From: Hydra vulgaris
Taxonomy: Eukaryota; Cnidaria; Hydrozoa; Anthoathecata; Hydridae
Assembly (NCBI RefSeq): GCF_038396675.1
Contig: NC_088922.1
Span: 3,116,001 to 3,180,000 of the forward strand
Reading direction: 5' to 3'
Length of the DNA stretch: 64,000 nucleotides
Part shown: piece by piece, positions 3,116-29,201 of the stretch
Numbering within the stretch: position 1 is the stretch's first letter
How the letters are laid out: every line of letters begins with the position of its first letter
Made by a program: the position numbers and the translations under genes
Notes under the pieces: model-generated
The model's input: the letters and a program-made list of their open reading frames with translations, nothing else
Told to the model about the DNA's origin: nothing
Database searches by the model: none

Positions 3116-3928
3116 CTCTGAAATATTGGTATTTATTAGATTCCAACCTTCTTTGGTGTAACACTTTGAAGGATTAACAAAATAGTCTTGTAAAGTCCAA
3201 AATTTTATGTAAAGATTATAATCAACTGGATTGTTTACTAACTCTCTATCCTCTACTGAATCATTTGGTTGAATTTCATCAAAATCTAACTTTTCTGTTT
3301 TAAAAAGTGTCACATTTTCAAGATGAAAATTACTCATTAAATTTAATGCAGATTTTTCTTCAACAGGAAAAAGTTGAGCAAGAAAAAGTTGAATTCTTCC
3401 ACAAAATACCGTATTTTGTGATTTTGACAATCTACGTAACATATCATTGCACATTCTTAACAAATGATTTTTTCCTGTACTAAAAAATGGTTCTGCATTC
3501 CATATTGAAACATTTTTCTCAATGTATTTGAACATTTTTTCACAATCACACAACGTCATTGTGTCAAATATATCACTAAGCAACAAAATAGGAAGATTTT
3601 TTGTACAAAACTGTTCTTTTGCATGAATAATGACATAATCTAAAAGCTCTTCATACTGAGATATGCACTTATCCATTTCCTTCTCAGAAATATCATTTTT
3701 ATCGCTATGGTGGAGATGATTATTACTAGCATATAAAATTTTACCTAAGGTTACTCGAAACGCTTGATCAGTAGCAAGCCTACAATCATTTTCAACTCCT
3801 TCATATTTTAAAAATAACTTCGAAATTGCTTCTGTTGTATATGGTTTGCTTTTAATAGAAATACAATCTATAACTTCATTTTGCATTGATAAGAAATCGA
3901 AATTATGACTATCAATAGAAACTACCAT
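3116..3928 (-). CDS. THOC1: THO complex subunit 1, N-terminal part
   Basis: The minus-strand frame runs open from ATG at 3928 to a stop at 3104 and is clearly THOC1, the TREX/THO subunit that couples transcription elongation to nuclear mRNA export. Recognised conserved stretches are DQAFR (about residue 54), the segment from about 150 to 185 with NHLLRMCNDMLRRLSKSQ and FCGRIQLFLAQLFP, the downstream LENVTLF, and PVDYNLYIKFWTLQDYF near residue 240. Family members are about 600-650 residues, so only the N-terminal 40% is here. The likeness ends at GWNLINTNISE, where CAGAG|GTGAAG resembles a splice donor (exon end 3116). No later exon is visible to position 1. It may be a large first coding exon followed by a long intron, or a 3'-truncated retrocopy, since vertebrate homologues split this portion into several exons. 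Homology is certain; functional status is not. Confidence 0.88.
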
Positions 3929-4140
3929 TTTGGAGAATTCAGAAATGATTAATCATTATGTTAATTTGTATCATAAATATTGAAAGCAAACTTGCATTCT
4001 CAATATTTAGTTTAGTCAGAGTAGAAACATGGAAAATGAAATGAAAAGCTCCGAGATTGATTGTCCTTCGCGTCCGCTCACGGGAACTTACTAACGGCTC
4101 ATAGCTTGACGGGAATACCATGTTCACACTAGCGACTCTT
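3929..4140 (-). promoter_or_regulatory. Possible 5' flank of the THOC1 gene
   Basis: Immediately upstream of the THOC1 start (minus strand), 4060-4115 is distinctly richer in G and C than its surroundings (CGCGTCCGCTCACGGGAAC), as often seen at animal promoters and 5' UTRs. Location and composition are the only evidence. Confidence 0.3.
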
Positions 4141-4590
4141 AACTATTAGTCAGTTTTGTTATATATTTGCAATTAAGTATTATTAGAAATTAGATTAACT
4201 GTAAATTTATTATGGATTTAAACCTAATTTTCAGAAAGTGACCCTAGGTACAGTTCAAAAAAAGTTTATAGTACTAAAGGCCGCTAATTTTTAAACCCTT
4301 CTATTTATGGAACTTTTTTAGTATAAGTCAATATACTTATACTAATAAAAAGTAACTAGTATTTTTTTTTTTAACAATATAACAATACATAAACTTGGTA
4401 TCTGAAAGAAGATCCAAAAGATCTTGTCGTCAGAACCATATAAAATATATCAAACGTGTATATATAATATAATAAAAATACAATTGATTTAATAATTATT
4501 AACAATTTAGAATAAACAAAAACAGAAAATAATTTTACATTTCAAAAATATTTATATATATTGTCAGTAGAAAGAATAAAGTTTTTTAAT
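4141..4590. other. AT-rich spacer
   Basis: No gene, RNA or repeat boundary recognised between the THOC1 upstream region and the 3' end of the retrotransposon. Confidence 0.5.
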
Positions 4591-6245
4591 TTAGTTAAAA
4601 ACAGAAAACGAAATTGACAAATCAAAATTTAGAACAACAATTTTGTTCCATAAATACGGTGCTCGATAGTTTATGCAAAATTGATTAAACTTTGTTTGAC
4701 AAAAGGGTTCAATTATTAAATTATTATTTCGTAAAGTATATTTGTTTATAGCTTTATGGGTAAAAAGATCTTTAAAAATGAACAATGGTTGTTCACTTTT
4801 ACAACGAAACATAAAACATAAAATATTATAGACATTGAGTTCGTAAACGTGCTTTAACGTTTTTAAATAAAATATTAGAATGAGAAAAACGATTTTCAAA
4901 ACATATTAAAGGCATTGCGTGTTTCTGACGATGGTAGAGATTTCGTAACTTACTTTTAGAGGTACTTCCCCAAACAATATTGGCATAATTTATATAGCTA
5001 TGAATAAATGAGTTGTAGAGTTGAATTAAATTTTGTTTATTTAGATAGTATCTGACCTTATATAGAATTTCAATACTTTTGACCAATTTAGTAGAAATAA
5101 AGTCAATATGATACTTCCATGTAATATTTTCATCAATGTAAATGCATAAAAATCTTGTGACCGACTCCATTTTTATTTCAATTTTATCAATGAAAAGTTT
5201 AGGTAAATTATTTGGTAAAAAACGCTTTTTTGCGAGGGAGTGGAAAAGGATCCGTTTTGTTTTGTCAATGTTTAAAGTTAATTTGTTGCACTTAAACCAG
5301 TTGGAGATGTGATTGAGTTCTTTATTCATATTTGAAAAAAGCTCATAAATGTCACTGTTTGACAGAAATAAATTAGTATCGTCCGCAAAAATGATACTCA
5401 TAAGGTTAGAAGCTTTATTTAAATCATTTATATAGACTAAAAACAAAAGTGGGCCAAGAATAGAACCCTGTGGAACACCACATTTTATGTCAGTTAACTT
5501 TTCATTTTGAAAATAATCTCCATAGAAAACAAATTGTTTTCTATTTGTCAAATAACTTTTATACCATTTTATTAATTTGCCATTAATTCCATAAAATTTG
5601 AGTTTCTTAAGTAGAATTTTGTGATCGACCGTGTCGAATGCTTTTGAAAGGTCAATGAAAATACCTAGTGTATATTGTGATCTACCAAATGAATTGGAAA
5701 TTTCACGAATGAACTGTGTAATGGCTTGTTCAGTTGAACAATTTTTTTAAAACCGAATTGATTTTTATATAGAAGTTTATTTAGATTAAGGTAATTGTAT
5801 GTTCTATTGTATATAATTCTTTCTAAAATTTTCGAGAAGGTTGAAAGAACTGAGATAGGGCAATATTTACTAATATTTGATTTTTTTCCGTCTTTGTAAA
5901 TTGGAGTAACTTTAGCTATTTTTAATTGGTCGGGGAATACACCTTGCTGTATAGATGCCCTGAACATTTTATAAAGAATACATTTTAAATTTTTAAAGCA
6001 ATCTATGACTATGTTGCCATTTATTTCGTCCGCACCTGCAGCTTTGTTTCTTTTAAGAGACTTGTAAGCTCTCTCAAACTGATCAAAAGATAAGTCAGAA
6101 TATAAATTATCTATAAAAAGCGAATTATTTAAAGGCTCTAGGAAATCACTAAAAGTTTTTTCCGTAATAGAGATGTGATCGTATCAGTTTCGCCATTTTT
6201 AAACAAGTCTGGAGCCTTGAATTTGGGCATTGAGAAATTGGGCCA
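4591..6245 (-). pseudogene. Non-LTR retrotransposon reverse transcriptase, 5'-truncated
   Basis: On the minus strand, overlapping frames form one RT of the CR1/L2/jockey type. In order: a linker with SLKRNKAAGADEINGN (~6040), KIAKVTPIYKDGKKSNISKY (~5900), ERIIYNR, then FIDLSKAFDTVDHKIL (~5650), GVPQGSILGPLLFLVYINDL (~5440) and the catalytic FADDTNLF (~5390), followed by thumb motifs (LYNSFIHSYINYANIVWG, ~4990) and the C-terminal INYRAPYLWN signature near 4670. All catalytic aspartates remain. Two frameshifts break it: one in a run of seven T at about 5743 and one in a run of five T at about 4861. Upstream of about 6245 the endonuclease ORF is missing, as in typical 5'-truncated insertions. 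It lies just upstream of the THOC1 promoter side. Confidence 0.9.
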
Positions 6246-17860: not shown

Positions 17861-18280
17861 AATAGCATCAGAATACTTTCCTTATTATTTATCTGCGTAG
17901 AATCAAGTAACAATTACAAAATTTACAATTGTTAGGTTTAAGGGTTAAAGATAAATAATTTAACGTAAAACATTTTGCTAAAATGCACATAAAAATTATT
18001 TAGGAATACAAAAAAAGCTTTTTCTTAAAAATATTTTTTACGTCATACTATACTATAAAGATATAAATTACGACCAGAATATACGTTGTGAGTTAAACAT
18101 TTTTAAAAGTAGTAAATTATCACTATAAAAATGCTTTATAATAATAACAACTCGCATGACAAAGTAAATGCGAGTTTTAGTTCGGTTAACGTATGTTATT
18201 TTTTTTTTTAATTTGTTCGTCTGGGTTAACAAAAAATGTCTTGATTGTTCAATTTGTCTACTTATTTAACGATTAACTTA
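17861..18280. other. Spacer between SINE and Academ-like element
   Basis: AT-rich; small hairpin AACTCGCAT...ATGCGAGTT at 18149-18176. No gene. Confidence 0.5.
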
Positions 18281-18758
18281 AAGTCCTGTCAAAATAGTCG
18301 AAAAAATAGTGGTAGGTTTGCATTAATTCGCATAGAGCAGAAAAGTGGTACAAACGTTGGCGACATTATTGAAAATAAAATATAAAAAGTCTCCAATGAT
18401 TCCACATCTGCAAAAAAAGTTATTTAATGGCAAAGAATAAAAATTTGTTTTTTTGCTAGTGCTTTTTACTATTTACAGAAAAAAAAAGGTTATGCGGCTT
18501 TTCTATGATCTTGAATAAAAGCAAGAAACTATTGCAAGAAACTGTTTTAGGGGGTTTTAATTATTGTTTAGCCGTTATAAAATAAATTATATTTAATTAA
18601 AATTAAGTTTTTATAATTGTTATATGTTAAAAAAAAAATAAGAGCATTAATGAATGGACCTTTCCCATAAATCGGCAACTGCGCAATGCATTGTGGTAGT
18701 TGTATTCATTTAAATCAAAACAATCCGATTAAAGTATTAGGAATTAAATATTATTATA

Positions 18759-20013
18759 ATGATTAGTTCTTTTAATGCTAATTTAGAAAATAAAATTGAT
18801 GCTAGTTCTTTTCAGAACTCTTGCCAGGCATCTAAAGCTATGTTTCGGGAACTTAAGCATGATGAGCTTATTGTTGTTGACGAAGAAGAATCTATAAACA
18901 AGAGTATATCAACTTGGTCAAGAGACATTTCACTTTTACCAAATATATCTCACAATTTTATCAAGAAATATCTTGTTAATGATACTATACATATTGATAA
19001 TTGTAAAAAAGGAGCCAATAAACTCCAAACTCTTGGCTATCGTTTATTTAAAGAAAAGATACCATTCATTACCAAATTGTTACGAAACCTCAACTTTACA
19101 ACTTCAAACTCTTTGTAAAGGTTTAGAAAATCTCTGCCAGGGGACATATATATCTTCAATAATTCGTGATAATAACTTTCAGGCATGTTCCTTTTTTAAT
19201 TCATCTCTGTCAACATTTATAGACAATGATATTGCAGAACCTTTTAGTAAAAAAGATGACCGATTGATTATTATTACTCTATTTGACAATTTAAAAAAGG
19301 TGATTGATTTAAGTTGTTTGTCTACTGAACAAAAAGCATTTGTAGAATTACATTTAATTGTTGATATTGAGGAAGCTAAAAATATTGAAGTCAATACAGT
19401 TAAACAATCTGAAAGTACATTATGGTATCAAGAAAGATGCAAACGATTGACAGCTTCAAATTTTGGTACTGTAATAAATAGGTGGAAAAAAATTTACCCT
19501 ACATCAATTTAAAAAAAATGTTTACAAACAAAAAATATCAAAGCAGGAGAAAACTGTATGTGGGGAAAGGTTAATGAAGATATAGCAATAAAACTATATG
19601 AAAACATAACGAAGTCAAGTGTTACTCGATGTGGTTTTTTTATAAACCCAAAATGCCCTTGGTTGGGTTGTAGCCCTGATGGAGTAGTTAGCCCTGAAAA
19701 AGTACTTGAAGTGAAATGTCCTTCTTCAAAAAAACATTTAACAATTAAAGAAGCGTGTCAAGATAAAAACTTTTATTTGAAATTTAACGATGGTGCTCCA
19801 AAATTAAAAATAAACCATCCTTATTACTATCAGTGTCAAGGCGTTATGGCACTAACAGAAACTAAAACAATTGATTTTATTGTATACACAGAAAAATCAT
19901 TGCACATCGAAACAATAGAGTATGATGCGGAATTATGGAATACAATTATTTTTCCAGAGTTAACAGATTTTTATTTCAAATTTATGTCATCAGAAATATT
20001 TAAAGTAAAATAA
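18759..20013 (+). pseudogene. ISL2EU-encoded YqaJ-like exonuclease, frameshifted
   Basis: Three frames join into one protein. Frame 1 (18759-19118) is an N-terminal region with GYRLFKEK. Frame 2 (to 19512) ends with STLWYQERCKRLTASNFGTV, the start of the YqaJ/lambda-exonuclease fold. Frame 3 (19558-20013) has MWGKVNEDIAIKLYENI, CPWLGCSPDGVV (catalytic Asp), VLEVKCPSS (E-x-K) and HPYYYQCQGVMAL (Gln motif), so all active-site residues of the phage-type recombinase nuclease are present. Frame changes occur near 19060-19090 and in the A8 run at about 19513. In ISL2EU elements this protein accompanies the transposase and presumably processes DNA ends. Apart from frameshifts it is well preserved. 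Confidence 0.85.
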
Positions 20014-20060
20014 ATGTTTACAGAATATTTATAAAATGTTTCTTTTTTTGTCTGGTTACA

Positions 20061-21769
20061 TTATTTGCTATCAGTTTTTATTAGAGGTGGCAGAAAAGTA
20101 ACTAAATAACAAACTATGACCCATATTTTGTTCATGTCAGCAGCCATTGAAAGTGGAAATGTGTTTTGTAATATTCTGTAGTTTTTGATTCTTGCAATTG
20201 CACGTTCGACATGAATTCGCACAGATGCAATTCGTCTTGTTTCTAATTCTTTTTCCAATGTAAGTTGAAAATCGCCTTCAAGAAATGGTGGTATGTTGAG
20301 ACTAATTCCTTTTGGTAAGTCATTTACGATATCGAAACCTCTATCAGCCATCAGGCTATCACCTTTTTCTAATAATTTTAGTATGCCACAGTGATTTGTT
20401 ATCTGTTTATCACTTGATCTTCCAGCATATAAATCAGATACAAATGTAATGGCACCACTCGGTGCAATACCAATCAAACCCTTTGCTGTGTGATGATGTT
20501 TATATTTTGAAAACATAGCTGATTGAGTGCGATAGCTAGATGGCATCACAGTAAATATTTCTGTACAGTCTATAATTACACGAGTATTAGGGTATACATC
20601 TTTAAAGCAGCTAGGCATTGTTTCATTAACTAGTTTTTTTGTTGGCCATATTGGAATTGATCTAAATTTTATGTGCAAAAAATCATACCAAGTAATTAAT
20701 ATCCTACTGGTAGTGCTTGATGAAATATTAAACCGTATTGCTAAATCTTCTATAGGAAAGGCGCAACGTAGTCGAATTAGCACCATGAAAAATTCCTCTT
20801 CAACGTTTAATATACGTGATCTTCCTCTTGTTTTAGATGAAGAATTTTCACTTAAATCGTCAGCAACAGTAGACATTGAACCCCAATAATTTAGTGAATA
20901 TATTTCTGGTTCTAAAAACTTCATGACTACTTTAAATAGTTCAAAATTTTCAAAACCTGTGTAAAATTTGAAATGTTCTTTGTTATGTTTAAACCTTTCA
21001 ACTGTAAATTGTGATAGAAGTATTTTGTCATTGAGCTTACATATAGCTTCTTTTTGAGTGTTTTCTAACGCTTGTTTTTCTTTTATAATGTCCTCAATTT
21101 GATCTTTAAGAATTTTTTTTTCTTGTTTTAATGTTTCTTCGTAGCTTAAAACAGGTGTTGATAGTTCTTCACTATAAGGTATTTGTATTGTTTTATGTAT
21201 TAAACCAAGGCTATTTTTGGTTTTCCTTGGTACACGAGCAGTTAGCTTAACTGTTTTTGGAATAATTGTTGGAACATTATTCATATAAGTTTTTTTGTTC
21301 CCTTGAAAGTGTGCTGAACAAACTCTGTGAGAAGAAGAAGGACTAAAGTCTTTTCTGCTAATTTTGGCTAACCATAACTTTCTTAACACTTTTTCCTTGG
21401 GTATAACATAAAATGATAAGTTTTTATTACGCTTAGAATTATTAAACAATTTGGTACACAACAAGTACATCCACCACTTGTTGAACTGAAGTCAACTTCA
21501 CTGTGTTCAACTTCTCTCAGTGAGATCGAATTCTGTGAAAAGAGTGAAGTTAAACTTTGTGAAAAGAGTGGTTCACTGTTTTCGCAAAGTTCAACTTCTC
21601 CGTTAAAAGTGAGTTCACCTTCAGTAATTTCACTATCATCTTCACTGTTTTCATAAAGTTCAATTTCACTGTTTTCACAAAGTTCAATCTCACTGTTTTT
21701 ACATAATTGAACATCACTGTTAAAATTTATTAGGCTTTTCGACATTTGTTTTGATTTAAATGAATACAA
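20061..21769 (-). pseudogene. ISL2EU THAP-domain DDE transposase, one frameshift
   Basis: The minus-strand start at 21769 (MYSFKSKQMSKSL) gives an acidic repeat region (IELCENSEIELYENSED), then a THAP zinc finger: CTCCVPNC, frameshift at about 21455, FNNSKRNKNLSFYVIPKEK, KLWLAKISRKDF and HRVCSAHF (C2CH). A coiled coil follows (EETLKQEKKILKDQIEDI), then a helix-turn-helix (FPIEDLAIRFNISSSTTSRI) and the DDE_Tnp_4 core with IIDCTEIF (Asp 1), LMADRGFDIVNDLP (Asp 2) and RIHVERAIARIKNYRIL (Glu). One missing base after the second THAP cysteine codon is the only lesion seen. From 21470 to 20061 the frame is fully open. THAP binds the element ends and the DDE core cuts. Possibly active but for one base, or an assembly error. 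Confidence 0.9.
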
Positions 21770-21813
21770 CTACCACAATGCATTGCGTTTTTGCCGATTT
21801 ATGGGAAAGGTCC

Positions 21814-22062
21814 GCATTACGTATAAAATTTATTTGATAAGTTTTTAAAATAAAACTTTTTTTAAAGTTATTTTTATGACCCCTCTCATGAAAAATTATT
21901 AACAAATTCTTTTGCATGACTTTTTAAACTAAATTTTCCCTTCATACCAAATTACGCGCGTTCAATTTGTCTTAAACGATATTCTGGCTTATGCAGTTAA
22001 TATGTTTGGTTATTGTTAAATATTTCTCATAAGGATTTGTACTATTTAATACTTTTCTTAAA
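21814..22062. other. 5' region of the Academ-like gene
   Basis: AT-rich sequence between the ISL2EU insertion and the first Met of the decayed Academ-like gene. No promoter motif is clear. Confidence 0.4.
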
Positions 22063-25000
22063 ATGTCGCAATTATGCTTGTGTAGTAAACTTTTAACAAC
22101 AAATGAAACAGTTGTTGTTGATCGAGGAATGAAGACTTTAATTGATTCAAGTGTCGATAGAAATGACGGGTTCCTTGAGTACCTAAAAGGTCAGAAATCT
22201 GTGACAACTCATGTACAGTGCCGTAAAGTGTATACCCGGAAGAATTCTATTGTGGCATTTAAAAGACAGCAACATATGGATCAAGCCAGTATATCCAAAA
22301 CTAGTCCACCTCGTACCAGAGTTCGCATGAGTGAATCCAATTTTTGTTTCAAAAAATATTGTTTATTTTGCGGCGATGAAGCGAATGAAGAGGCTGAAAA
22401 AAAGAAAGCGCAAAATGTTCGTTGTAAAATTAATAAAGTTGTTACCCTAGAATTCAAAGAGTCGATTCTAAAAGTTGAAGATCTAATACCACAAATAAAG
22501 GAAATTCTTTTAGCAAAAGACTTCGCAGCAAAAGCTCATGTGCCAATACAAATCTATCAAAATGATGGTGTAGTCGGTATAATGAAATAAATGTGCAATA
22601 TTTCCCTTATGAAAGTGAAGCATCAGTATCTCTACTTCAAAAAATAGATGCCATATGGTTCTATGTTAAATACAAGAATTTATCATTACCCGTTTGGAAT
22701 GGTTTTGTCGAACATTTAACAAGTAATATGATGAATTTTTCTGAATCCAAAATTTTATTTTTACCATTTATTCACCAACCAGCAAATAACTACAGTACTA
22801 TATACACTACTTTACTTTGTGCTTTACAAAATGCAAAAAATTATTGTCACGAAGTATGCATTATTACTTTTGATCAACCTGTTTATGCAAAAGCTAGAGA
22901 TATCGTATCTGCAGCACCTGATGGATCTGAACTTTTGAAGATCGTAATAAGACTTGGAGGGTTTCTCTTAATTATGTCATTTTTTTGATTAATTGGTTAT
23001 ATTATGCAACGTAGTGGCATACAAGAGGTGCTTTTGTTAATTTATGCACCTAAGTCATTAGAAAAAATGTTCAATGGTTATGCTTACGCGAGAGCTGTTA
23101 GAGCCCATACATTACATCAGCTCACTTTAGCAATAATAATATTAAAAAATCTTGTTATTTATGACGAGAGAGCTGCAAGTCTTAATATTACCGTTGAAAA
23201 TGTCATAAATAACATAATTTTGTATAATGATATCGAAAGTGGTGACGATAATAAATATACGAAAGATTTCTTTAACAGTTCAATAAAAAGCTAAAGGAAT
23301 TTGAAAAACGAGGACCTACAGCAAAACTATGGATAGAATATTTTAATATGGTGCCGATAGCAAAGAAATTTATAAGAGCTGAACACATGGGAGATTGGCA
23401 AGCTTATTTGAACAGCATTAAAGAAATACTTCATTATTTCCACGCAACAGGACATTTTCTTTATGCTAAGTCTGCGCATTTGTATTTGCAGGATATGCTA
23501 CAATTAGAAAAATTAACAAACTGTATTATTTATTAAAAATTTATCGAAAGATTTTTCACCGTTAGACGTTGCGATAAGCTCAGTTGTGGTGCTTCAACAG
23601 AAATGGTGATCGAGCAGTCAATGATGAAATCAATGAAGATAAATGGAGGTATTGCTCGAGGAAGAAACACAAAAGACAGTGCTATAAGTAAATGAGTTTA
23701 TGACATGCATGCAATAAATACTTTTTGTGAAGGATTGGAAGATCTGGTAGAGTGGATGCAACAGATCAGCATGTAGATGCAAGTGATTCACGAATAAAGA
23801 AAGATTCTAGAAATACCGAAAAACTTTATAAGTGGTTTGAATTGCATGATCCTTTCCCAATTGTTAAATAAATCACATCTATTGCGAGTTGAGTCGTCGG
23901 TGATAATAAAGTTAACTATCATAAAGCTCGTGAAGTTGGAATTGCTTCTATGTCTAAGATGGCCGGGCAAATATTTAATATCAAATTAAAACGCTCTGAT
24001 AAAATACTTCCTCTTTTAACCATGAGTAGTGTCATAAAGGTTCATAATGAGAAAGTACCTGTAGATCCAGTATTGTTATTTCAACGTATGAGTATTACTA
24101 AGACATTTGAGAAAGAAATTGAAAATATTTTTGAATATGAACTAGCCCCCTATCCATTATCATTATTTGATAAAACTGGAATGCGTAAAACAAAAAAATC
24201 AGCTCTTTACAATTCTTTGAATCTGTGAATATTAAAATTGACAGCGCAAATGCCAGTTACATCATCGATAGAGGATATTTATTACACCGCGTTGTGTGGG
24301 ATCGAGAGGAAGCGTTCAACGTTATTTTTGATAAATACATTCAGTATGTACATAGATATTTTGGTCATGAAGTCCCTATAGTAGTATTTGAGAGTTATAC
24401 TGATTATAAAAAAAATGTTAAAGCTGCAGAACAGCGTTGTCAAACCACAAAAACATCTTTATTTTATGATGTCATTTTTGATCAATTTATGACGGTTCCA
24501 ACAAGCCGACAGCAATTCCTTACCAATACTCACAACAAATCTTGCTTCATTTTAATATTATGAGAAAGGTTAACAGCTGCAAATATTATAGTGAAGCAAG
24601 CTGATAATGACGCTGATGTCCTCATAACTGAAACAGCCATAGAACAATCCAGTACATCAAATACAACTATCGTTGTCGGTGAAGATGTTGACTTATTAGT
24701 ACTACTGCAAGAACTCCAACTGATAAGAATATTTTTTTTGAAACCCGGGAAAGCTCAACAACCAACAGAAATATCTTCATCAAAAAGTTTATCTGCTTAT
24801 CCAAAATGTCAAAATCATATCTTATTTTTACATGCAATTACAGGCTGTGATAATACATCAACATTTTTCAGAAGGGGTAAAACAACGGTATTTAAATTGT
24901 TTGAAAAACATGATTTAACTAATTATGTCGAAGTATTTCAAAGGATCGACTCGAATCCACAACACATCATCGCAAACGGGATTCGTTTTCTCTAAAGTTG

Positions 25001-25602
25001 TTTGTATAGACAAGTATAGATATTCAAGTTTTGTAAAAAATACCTGGAACAATAAAAGAGTGCAATTATCTTGTCTTCCTCCAACATCTGGTTCTGCTTG
25101 TCAACACTTATATCGAGTGTACTATCAAATTCAAGTATGGCTAGGCAATCAACTGGACCCAACAGACTGGGGGTGGAATTTAGAAGGTAATACATTGGAG
25201 CCAATTCAAACTTTACTTTCATCTGCTCCAAAAAAACTTCTCAACACCATCTTTTGCAATTGCAAAAGGGGTTGTAGTGCAAAATGTAGTTGCAAAAAAG
25301 TCGGTTTATTGTGTTCACCAATATATACTAATTGTCGAGGCCAGTCTTGCTCCAATATTGATTTAATTTCAACAAATGAAGATTTTGATGATGTTAATGA
25401 TGAGACAGCTAATGTATCTTTTTCACATTTCGAGCTAAAAAAAAAAGAAGAAGTAGAGGAGGGAGAAGACGACAAAGAAGTAAAAGAGGAAGAAGATGAA
25501 GAAGAAGAAGAAGAAGAAGAAGAAGAAGAAGAAGAAAAAAGGCGAAGAAGATATAGCATACTATTATATTTAATAATATATAGTAATAACACTATTATAT
25601 AG
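22063..25602 (+). pseudogene. Academ-like XPG/PIN nuclease with Cys8 motif, multiply broken
   Basis: A chain of collinear plus-strand frames (22063-22590, 22593-22988, 23004-23294, 23348-23536, 23950-24228, 24225-24563, 24591-24995, 24925-25602) forms one protein of about 1,150 residues. N-terminus: LCLCSKLLTTNETVVVDRG, THVQCRKVYTRK and CLFCGDEANEE (zinc-binding style). Middle: GIQEVLLLIYAP and GDWQAYLNSIKEILHYF. Nuclease-like region: IIDRGYLLHRVVWDREEAF, VPIVVFESY (usual VFDGY altered), DNDADVLITETAI, TIVVGEDVDLLVLLQEL and HAITGCDNTSTFFRRG, matching XPG-N/XPG-I acidic motifs. C-terminus: eight cysteines in CNCKRGCSAKCSCKKVGLLC plus TNCRGQSC, followed by an acidic (GAA)n-encoded tail. At least six frameshifts or stops kill it. 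The protein family is abundant in cnidarians; the Academ assignment rests on XPG plus Cys8. Confidence 0.75.
25441..25548. repeat. (GAA)n tract
   Basis: GAAGAAGAA repeats encoding a poly-Glu tail at the 3' end of the Academ-like gene. Confidence 0.9.
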
Positions 25603-25804
25603 CAAATAAAACATTATTTATAGATTATGTTGAATAAGACTTCTTCGATTTTAGATTTGCAATATATCAGGAATAGTGATTCTTAGAAAAAAAAAGTATA
25701 AAGACAATTTTTGGAGATAATTTAATGATCTAAAACTTTTGCTCGATTTATTTATTTTTTTTGATAAAATTTACCGTTTACCGGAAAAATATGAAAAACC
25801 ATTT
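25603..25804. other. 3' flank of the Academ-like gene
   Basis: AT-rich, precedes the right terminal inverted repeat. No other feature. Confidence 0.4.
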
Positions 25805-26304
25805 TTTTCTACTTTTGACCTTGAATAACTTTTTTTGCAGATGCAGAATCGGTGGGGACTTTTAATATTTTTTTTGTGAAAATGTCCCGAAGGTCTGTAC
25901 CAAATTTCAGCTCTATGCGAATTATTGTAAACTGTATTGTCTATTTGGACCGGACTATTAAGGTAAAGTGACCAAATTCGAGCGTGTGACCAAATTCCAG
26001 CCACATTTTAAATTTAATATTTCTGTCTTGGTTTTTGCTTTAAGTTTATAAATGCGACTTTTTTGAGACTGGTATGAACTCAACCAATAAAATAATAACA
26101 TTATTTTAGTTGGCGGGTGTTTATAATAGAAGAAACATCATAACAAATATTTATCTCAAAAAAGTATTACTTTAGATTTAAAAGTAACTCTTGTGTCTAA
26201 AAGTAACTCTTACTTGTAAGATATTTATTATAAATATATTTTATCCTCATATTTTAAAAATATTTTATAAATATTTAACTAAATAAATGCATATAGGGGA
26301 ACCT

Positions 26305-26540
26305 GTTGTACCTTTGACCACTTTTTGCTTTAAGGCGTTTTTTGCGTAGCCTATTGTGTAAATCCAAACCATTCAAACTTTATAATATTCTCTTATATTT
26401 TGCCCAAAAATTATACTTAGAACTTTTTTTTCATTTGACCAAGAAGTATCTTTTTCCCGCGTTTTAAAAAAAGAAGTCTATTGGTCAAAGGTACAACACG
26501 TACGTTGTACCTTTGACCGATGCGCGTTGTTCCTTTGACC
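26305..26540. promoter_or_regulatory. Left subterminal GTTGTACCTTTGACC sites
   Basis: Copies at 26305-26319, 26483-26497 (inverted), 26504-26518 and 26526-26540 (one mismatch). The copies at 26483 and 26504 form a tight inverted pair. Likely binding sites for the element's own HTH protein. Confidence 0.65.
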
Positions 26541-26937: not shown

Positions 26938-28871
26938 TTAACTATTGCAAATAGTCAGATCAACATCAAACATAAGATACTGACGCTTAGATGAACCATG
27001 ACCAATACTTGGTGGTGGAAGTTTCATAATAATATCCTTAAGTTCCAAATCATAAAGATTGTCATCTTCTCTTATAAACTTGTTACAAAAGTCTCCTGAT
27101 TTCTTAAGGTACTTAATTTTGTAAACTATACCAACAACTTCTAAAACTTCTGCTACATAAAATCTAGAGCATTTCTTTCCAGCCAACTTGACAATTAAAA
27201 AATCTCTAGAAACAATTTCACTTTCATTATCAAGTATATTTACTCCAAAATCAATTTCATTAGAGCTTTCATCATTTAAATATATGTCAGACTGACTAAA
27301 AATAATCTGCTTTGCCATTTTTTTTCTTTTGCTTGAAGAGGTCTTTTTAAATTGTTGGTTATTAGATTTTGAATCTAGAATAACTTTAATTTCAGGGGTA
27401 TCAGTTAGAATACATAATTTTCTATTACGTCTTTTTGAAGTATTTGTTTTTCTTAATTTGGCTTTAGGATGAGGTCGTATTATCTCAGGTGAAACAATTG
27501 ATCTTGATGGTAAACTCACAGTAGGGATTTCCCCTAAAACAATAGATGACGTTGATGGTACACTGGATGGAGCAGTTTTAACATCAATAATCTCATTAGA
27601 AAGGCAAGCTTCAGTATTCACTATTGGCCTATCAGTAACATTTGCAGCTAAAAAGTCAATATCAGTAAAAATATTTTCATTAAATGGATAAAATCCAGTA
27701 CATTTAAAACTGTTTATAATATTATTTGGTACAAAAGCATGAGGATAAGCTTGACCAACAAGGTAAGATATATCATAAATTGTGACTGGTTTACCAGCAT
27801 TGCCTGGTGATATCATCCAGTTATTCATGGCATTGTTATAAAAAGTTTTAAATGATCCAAAAACACTACGATCAAGAGGTTGCATTTTATGGGTTGTGTG
27901 AGGATGAAATGTCATTAAAACTATGCCTGATTTTTTTGCTAACTCAATAACAGAAATGTTTACATGACTCTCATGATTATCCATTAATAAAAGAACAGGT
28001 TTTTTAATTGACGGTCGCACATTACTAATAAAATGTTCAAGAAATTGCACAAAAATGACTTCATTTGACCATCCAGACTTATTAGCTGCTCATACACTTC
28101 CAGGAGGACAATTATTTAACATGTAGTCTTTGAATTTAGCACGTGGAAATACAAGTAATGGTGGAATGCTATTTCCAGTAGCATTAATGGCTGCAATCAT
28201 TGTTACATTGTTGCCTCGTTCAGCACTAGTTATGCTCCCTATTTGTTTTTTACCTTTTGGAGCTAGAATTTTTGGTGGTACGTGGACTGTGGTAATTCCT
28301 GTTTCATCACAGTTCCAAATATTTGATGGGTCAAAATGATAACGTTCTAAAACATTTTTGTAATTTTTATATACAATTCTTACAGTTTCTCTATTGAATG
28401 CAAAAGATCTACCAAGACTTGTAGGTTGTGGTTTACGTAGAGATAGCTTGTTATTATATCTTTTGCGAAAATCTCGCAGCCATTGTTCACCTGCACATTT
28501 ATTTTTCATCCATGAAGTTTCAATTTTTTTTCTGATTTGCTAAAGCATAATGCAAAGGATCTTATCTGCTTTAATGTAAGTCCATAATGCATATTTGCAG
28601 CATCTGCCAAGTAGTTTACCAAAATAAATTCTTCTTCAGTTGAGAATACTTTTTTTGGTTTGGTATGTGAATATAAATATTCGCAACTACCAGATTTTTT
28701 AAACTGCTTCAACTGATATATTAAAGTTGACTTTTTAATGTTGCAATGTCTTGCAGCTTCACTTAAACTCATTTTTTGTTGAAGCACAAAATTCACTGCA
28801 TTTAGCATATCCATTTCGGAAATCTTTTTGCGAAAAACACCAATCTTGCTCCTTGGCATTTTAAAACTAAA
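26938..28871 (-). pseudogene. Pogo/jerky-like DDE_1 transposase, two lesions
   Basis: Starts at MPRSKIGVFRKKISEMDML on the minus strand. HTH: MSLSEAARHCNIKKSTLIYQ. CENP-B-type second HTH: EEFILVNYLADAANMHYGLT then GEQWLRDFRKRY. DDE_1 core: IWNCDETGITTV (Asp 1), ERGNNVTMIAAINATGNSIP, VLLLMDNHESHV (Asp 2) and FHPHTTHKMQPLDRSVFG (Asp 3). A lysine-rich tail with KIRPHPKAKLRK-like motif ends at 26938. Lesions: one base lost in an A8 run (minus; about 28530) and a TGA replacing the Gly codon after PPGSV at about 28088. Everything else is open, so the copy died recently or carries assembly errors. About 640 residues when read through, as usual for jerky-like transposases. Confidence 0.92.
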
Positions 28872-29201
28872 ATATATTAACAAAATTAATTAACTATTTC
28901 GATACATTTAATTCCCTATAGCTGAGCAGAAACTAGGTAATAAAATGAACTTGACAATAATATTGCTTCAGCTGTCCAACTAACTAAACTAACAAAATTG
29001 ATTATTCTAAGTGTAGTAGTGGTTCAAGAATAAATAGTGAATTGCATTAAAATTCAATGGAATTATTTCATCATCATAATACTAGAAACAATTTTGCATT
29101 AAAAAGCAATAAAGCACAGACGACGCCTAATAAGGTAGATTATAAATTTTATAATCTTGCCCTCTTAAAGTCCGCAAATTATCGAGGAAGCAGTTTTTAT
29201 T

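Follow-up and report, generated by a model that had tools for sequence, protein, structure and literature searches.

A decayed, probably AcademX-type DNA transposon of Hydra vulgaris, its deleted derivatives and its diverged relatives

In Hydra vulgaris, a 64,000-nt stretch of DNA (C3:3116001-3180000, hereafter the window) contains two inverted repeats that enclose an ISL2EU transposon and the remains of a long protein with XPG-like acidic motifs. This raises the question of whether the protein belongs to the host or to a transposon whose ends are the inverted repeats. Our results show that positions 18281-25957 are a single decayed DNA transposon, bounded by terminal inverted repeats and flanked by TTA as its 3-bp target site duplication. 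With good confidence, we consider it to be a dead copy of a cut-and-paste element of the AcademX type.

The ends of the element are well defined in the window. The arms at 18316-18434 and 25814-25932 are 81% complementary over 119 nt without gaps, and a gapped alignment extends them to both termini, 18281 and 25957, with a score of 134 compared to a maximum of 32 among 298 random window pairs. Both termini agree exactly with a sequence-only reading of the locus, and the TTA flanks that it described lie directly outside them. That reading also gave two words shared by the repeats; the first is as written, while the second matches at 19 of 20 letters, as the left copy has A rather than G before CATCTGC. 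Between the inverted repeats, TAGTCCGG..., the element carries one large broken gene.

When the genome (911.5 Mb in 15 contigs) was searched, both ends and protein proved to be multi-copy, with at least 40 places for each end. The left end gave at least 40 scored matches (of 149 candidates) and the right end at least 42 matches, which fall at 40 places (40 scored of 175 candidates); one place on C7 is listed for both owing to the similarity of the two ends. The XPG-like piece at 24564-24992 had at least 150 matches (150 scored of 335 candidates) and the N-terminal piece at least 140 (150 scored of 193 candidates), where several matches may be parts of one copy. Eleven further copies could be read across most of their length.

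The window by itself could not exclude that the ends are an unrelated repeat and the protein a member of a host gene family lying between them by chance, and the finding of end copies without a protein match would fit such an explanation. However, at 24 of the 30 fetched loci of the XPG-like piece, the right end follows downstream on the coding strand, and in 21 of these 24 it lies 500-950 bp from a fixed reference point. Six pairs of left and right ends without an XPG match were fetched as a sample of the end copies that lack the protein, and all six are the element of the window family with internal deletions rather than ends around unrelated genes. Together with the duplications immediately outside the ends, described below, these results led us to reject the host-gene explanation, which we regard as highly improbable. 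The protein family is instead encoded by the transposon, as the sequence-only reading had proposed, and the ends and duplications found in three diverged families agree with this.

The deleted derivatives have a structure of their own. Five of the six (L073, L074, L075, L076 and L078) have two junctions in common, joining position 3499 of copy C10 to about 4125 and position 4391 to 5992, and L077 has roughly the second of these. Five of the six could be scored for duplications; they are 3.1-4.8 kb long, and all of them, including four of the five copies with both junctions, are flanked by 3-bp duplications of their own. The simplest reading is that the deleted form multiplied using protein from complete copies. 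By eye, L075, L076 and L078 also appear to share a mariner-like insert, which lies on the opposite strand.

Target site duplications were analyzed in 24 copies, i.e., 12 near-full copies including that of the window, six deleted copies, three of a sister family and three of other families. Five of these could not be scored due to a missing or damaged end (C15, C12 and C6b), a left end that was not found (F55) or an end within a TA repeat (L075). Immediately beyond the termini, 18 of the 19 scored copies have a 3-bp match and none has a 2- or 4-bp match, compared to 3-bp matches in 25 of 342 mismatched left/right pairs (7%). This count is not blind, because the terminus strings were picked after the flanks had been inspected. 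The scored copies share one type of terminus throughout, TAGT...ACTA or, in a subfamily, TAAT...ATTA, apart from point changes, and the 18 other than the window copy are 3.1-6.8 kb long. If the mutated first base of the element is included, the window flanks, CTTAA ... TTAAG, read TTAA at either end, which could indicate a piggyBac-type element inserted at TTAA. This explanation was rejected and is the least probable of those considered, as the other copies do not have a TTAA duplication: the 18 duplications comprise 12 different triplets, the 4-bp match is absent from all 19 scored copies, and Pfam scans found no piggyBac domain.

Two observations on the ends count against the AcademX-type reading. 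The right end is absent at six of the 30 XPG loci (L012, L014, L023, L035, L036 and L038), although a left-end match is present at both L023 and L036, and the C13 copy at 10.25 Mb lacks a 3-bp match.

The same organization is found beyond the window family. In three other families the XPG-like segment is 27-30% identical to that of a window-family copy, and these have inverted termini of the form TAGT...ACTA and 3-bp duplications. A young sister family (L050-L052) consists of copies of 5.8-5.9 kb that are 96-98% identical, with termini TAGTCCGGTAGA and the duplications TTA, TTG and ATA, and L052 has open frames of 418, 379 and 588 codons. The termini are TAGTAGGA in F59 (inverted repeats of 313 bp) and TAGTGTAG in F66 (inverted repeats of 108 bp), both with ATA as duplication, while F55 yielded its right terminus only.

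The relatives also indicate what the broken gene of the window would once have encoded. In their protein, two N-terminal C2HC-like motifs (by eye) are followed by a middle region, the XPG-like segment and a C-terminal cysteine motif, CxCx3Cx3CxCx6Cx3Cx2Cx4C. This motif has nine cysteines; the eight counted in the sequence-only reading are correct for the window copy and not for its relatives. The window has eight because one cysteine became tyrosine, at a position where 14 of 15 other loci compared have cysteine and L022 also has tyrosine. The XPG-like acidic motifs reported in that reading are present, in one frame and in two pieces split by an in-frame TGA at 24561-24563. Relative to other copies, the window gene also lacks about 950 bp between 22477 and 22478. 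Both sides of this gap were found in nine of 11 other assembled copies, 947-990 bp apart in eight and 2,283 bp apart in C6a, and DNA comparison showed only one side in C12 and C6b. Loss of an intron was ruled out as a cause, since the reading frame of copy C2 continues past the break point; therefore, the window copy carries a deletion. The missing stretch contains the DNx(D/E) motif in seven of 11 copies, those where the exact pattern was found, and the window copy is without DNx(D/E). Five families have DNx(D/E), FDQ(P) (as FDQ or FDH) and G(G/P)FH in the middle region, and four have DxxIEQ, which was not found in F66; the DNxD form was read in L052. This conserved region could be a DDD/E core. 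The features of the window copy are collected in Table 1.

Table 1. Position and strand of the features of the element, its nested transposon and its flanks in the window.
Feature	Position	Strand	Details
Target site duplication TTA, left	18278..18280	.	flank reading
Left terminal inverted repeat	18281..18453	+	family terminus TAGTCCGGTCAAAATAG, subfamily TAATCCGG, window copy AAGTCCTGTC
Nested ISL2EU	18652..21815	-	AT duplication at 18650-18651 and 21816-21817
YqaJ nuclease of ISL2EU	19513-20013	+	Pfam scan
THAP/DDE_Tnp_4 transposase of ISL2EU	20061-21491	-	Pfam scan
N-terminal coding piece, MSQLC...	22063..22590	+	C2HC-like by eye
Middle coding pieces	22566..23536	+	FDQP, GGF, RAE motifs; frame broken by TGA 22986-22988 and shifts
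Coding piece preceding XPG-like segment	23893..24228	+	
Putative XPG/PIN-like nuclease piece	24189..24995	+	DRGYLLHR, VFESY, DNDADVL, VVGEDVDLLV, AITGCD; assignment by motifs
C-terminal piece	24919..25602	+	cysteine motif 25255-25350 plus acidic tail
Right terminal inverted repeat	25794..25957	-	ends GACCGGACTA
Target site duplication TTA, right	25958..25960	.	flank reading

The XPG assignment of the segment is a putative one made by motif alone. DGGxLLHR, VFDGY..K..E..R, DAD, DTDILVLL and GCDTTS...GK are conserved across the segment (alignment A1), and PIN-like families appear among its sub-threshold matches (XPG_I 0.12, NYN_YacP 0.011, Xni 0.052, fen_arch 0.053). Additionally, three XPG_I exons were found in this Hydra genome, and the hhalign alignment with the first of them is collinear through the GCD motif, though its score is no better than that of shuffles. 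Several results speak against the assignment. The segment had no significant match in Pfam, NCBIfam or PDB, whether searched as single sequences, profile or consensus, and the unrelated families YbgS (0.0023) and napF (0.0085) outscore the PIN-like ones. In hhalign comparisons with the three XPG_I exons, 39, 16 and 8 of 100 shuffles reached the observed scores, and one exon scores higher reversed than forward. Single-sequence structure predictions of window sequences gave no usable fold (pLDDT 41 and 35). In separate searches outside this genome, neither GTDB genome contigs nor IMG/VR viral contigs yielded a relative of the 588-aa L052 protein when scanned by pattern, and no XPG-family sequences were returned from the GTDB contigs scanned with an XPG_I-containing exon of the Hydra genome.

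The element is split by a second transposon, as had been noted from the sequence. This insert has THAP, HTH_Tnp_4 and DDE_Tnp_4 domains on the - strand and YqaJ on the + strand, a 68-nt inverted repeat that is 96% alike, a transposase frame open across 476 codons, and an AT duplication. The uninterrupted site is seen in three relatives (C10, C15 and C14). A THAP + DDE_Tnp_4 transposase, a YqaJ nuclease and a 2-bp duplication are the set that we take to define ISL2EU, and the nested element has all of these; it is an ordinary copy with nothing notable that differs. ISL2EU was inserted after the host element, since it lies inside it. Compared with the 11 other copies, the host element shows 79.6-89.5% identity over its aligned parts.

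The nuclease of AcademX elements is of the XPG type. The Academ superfamily and its AcademX lineage are reportedly to be traced to Kapitonov and Jurka in 2010 (Repbase Reports) and Kojima in 2020 (Mobile DNA). According to PMC10045372, duplications measure 3 or 4 bp in AcademX and 9 or 10 bp in AcademH, another lineage of this superfamily, a difference that is related to nuclease versus helicase. The Hydra family resembles AcademX so described in its inverted repeats, a duplication of exactly 3 bp, a long protein with nuclease motifs and complete copies of about 5-6 kb. It differs from AcademH, which has a helicase and the longer duplications; no helicase was found in the Pfam scans. PMC9587614 lists Academ among the superfamilies with a DDD/E transposase, and a mean length of 5,565 bp over 100 consensus elements is given for bivalve Academ in PMC10294476. 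On this basis, we file the element as a probably new, unnamed AcademX-like family of known kind. Given the 3-bp duplication and the nuclease motifs, membership of Academ is likely and not proven.

The element might also represent a separate superfamily of DNA transposons that acts like AcademX and is unrelated to it by descent. In the pieces of the element scanned, no match rose to the curated cut-off of any Pfam family, nor did one to that of an NCBIfam family for the XPG-like segment, which would suit this explanation. However, the duplication length and nuclease motifs fit AcademX as portrayed in PMC10045372, and the 18 other scored copies, at 3.1-6.8 kb, lie around the bivalve mean in PMC10294476. 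We therefore consider separate descent unlikely and retain the AcademX-type assignment. No description of Hydra Academ families was found in the literature searched, judged by titles and the beginnings of abstracts, and the main text of the 2025 Hydra genome paper has no word starting with "Academ" (PMC12220107).

Some copies of the family show further features. Three left-end copies on C3 (L004, L005 and L006, at 21.1, 20.3 and 20.5 Mb) have a nearly identical flank and are duplicated segments. Their left ends run into a minisatellite with 40-bp units, of which L006:2401-3142 holds at least 18.5 copies at 98%, the array being cut by the end of the locus. The units match the start of the transposon gene; therefore, part of the element became a tandem array. 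The XPG-piece matches at C8:28.29 Mb (L032) and C8:28.60 Mb (L033), about 306 kb apart, have identical scores and opposite orientation, which suggests an inverted segmental duplication. The XPG piece has other equal-scoring pairs as well: those at C6:19.35 Mb, C14:4.27-4.35 Mb and C3:41.17-41.20 Mb are in opposite orientation, and the pair at C4:23.74 Mb is in the same orientation. Copy C9 (C9:4.33 Mb) is interrupted by an unrelated open frame of 242 codons, at positions 3567-4292 of its joined sequence, which by eye resembles a piece of a retroelement.

Next to the element, the window holds a transposase in three pieces at 26938-28889 on the - strand, with DDE_1 (2e-17) and a Psq-type helix-turn-helix; it is of the pogo/CENPB type. 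A 20-nt inverted repeat (26301-26320 and 26482-26501) lies between the two.

We propose that the gene product would act as a fused transposase. Its middle part, with DNx(D/E), FDQ, G(G/P)FH and DxxIEQ, may provide a DDD/E catalytic core for cutting at the TAGT/ACTA termini and for joining these to target DNA with a stagger of 3 bp. Binding of the transposon ends might fall to the C2HC-like motifs at the N-terminus and the nine-cysteine motif at the C-terminus, and the XPG/FEN-like segment might trim the flanking or non-transferred strand. A doubtful extension of this model is that a FEN/XPG-type nuclease, through its fusion to a DDD/E-like core, is indispensable for end processing and fixes the duplication at 3 bp. 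If it were true, several Hydra families, one of them young, would provide material on why AcademX makes duplications of 3-4 bp and AcademH of 9-10 bp. Should the Academ proteins of Repbase turn out to be unrelated, the transposase lineage may merit a separate name. Collectively, these results attribute a protein family that has no model in Pfam to DNA transposons and define the exact ends and duplications of four families. The element is otherwise ordinary transposon biology, and the young family is suited for asking how the DDD/E-like core and the XPG-like nuclease divide their labour.

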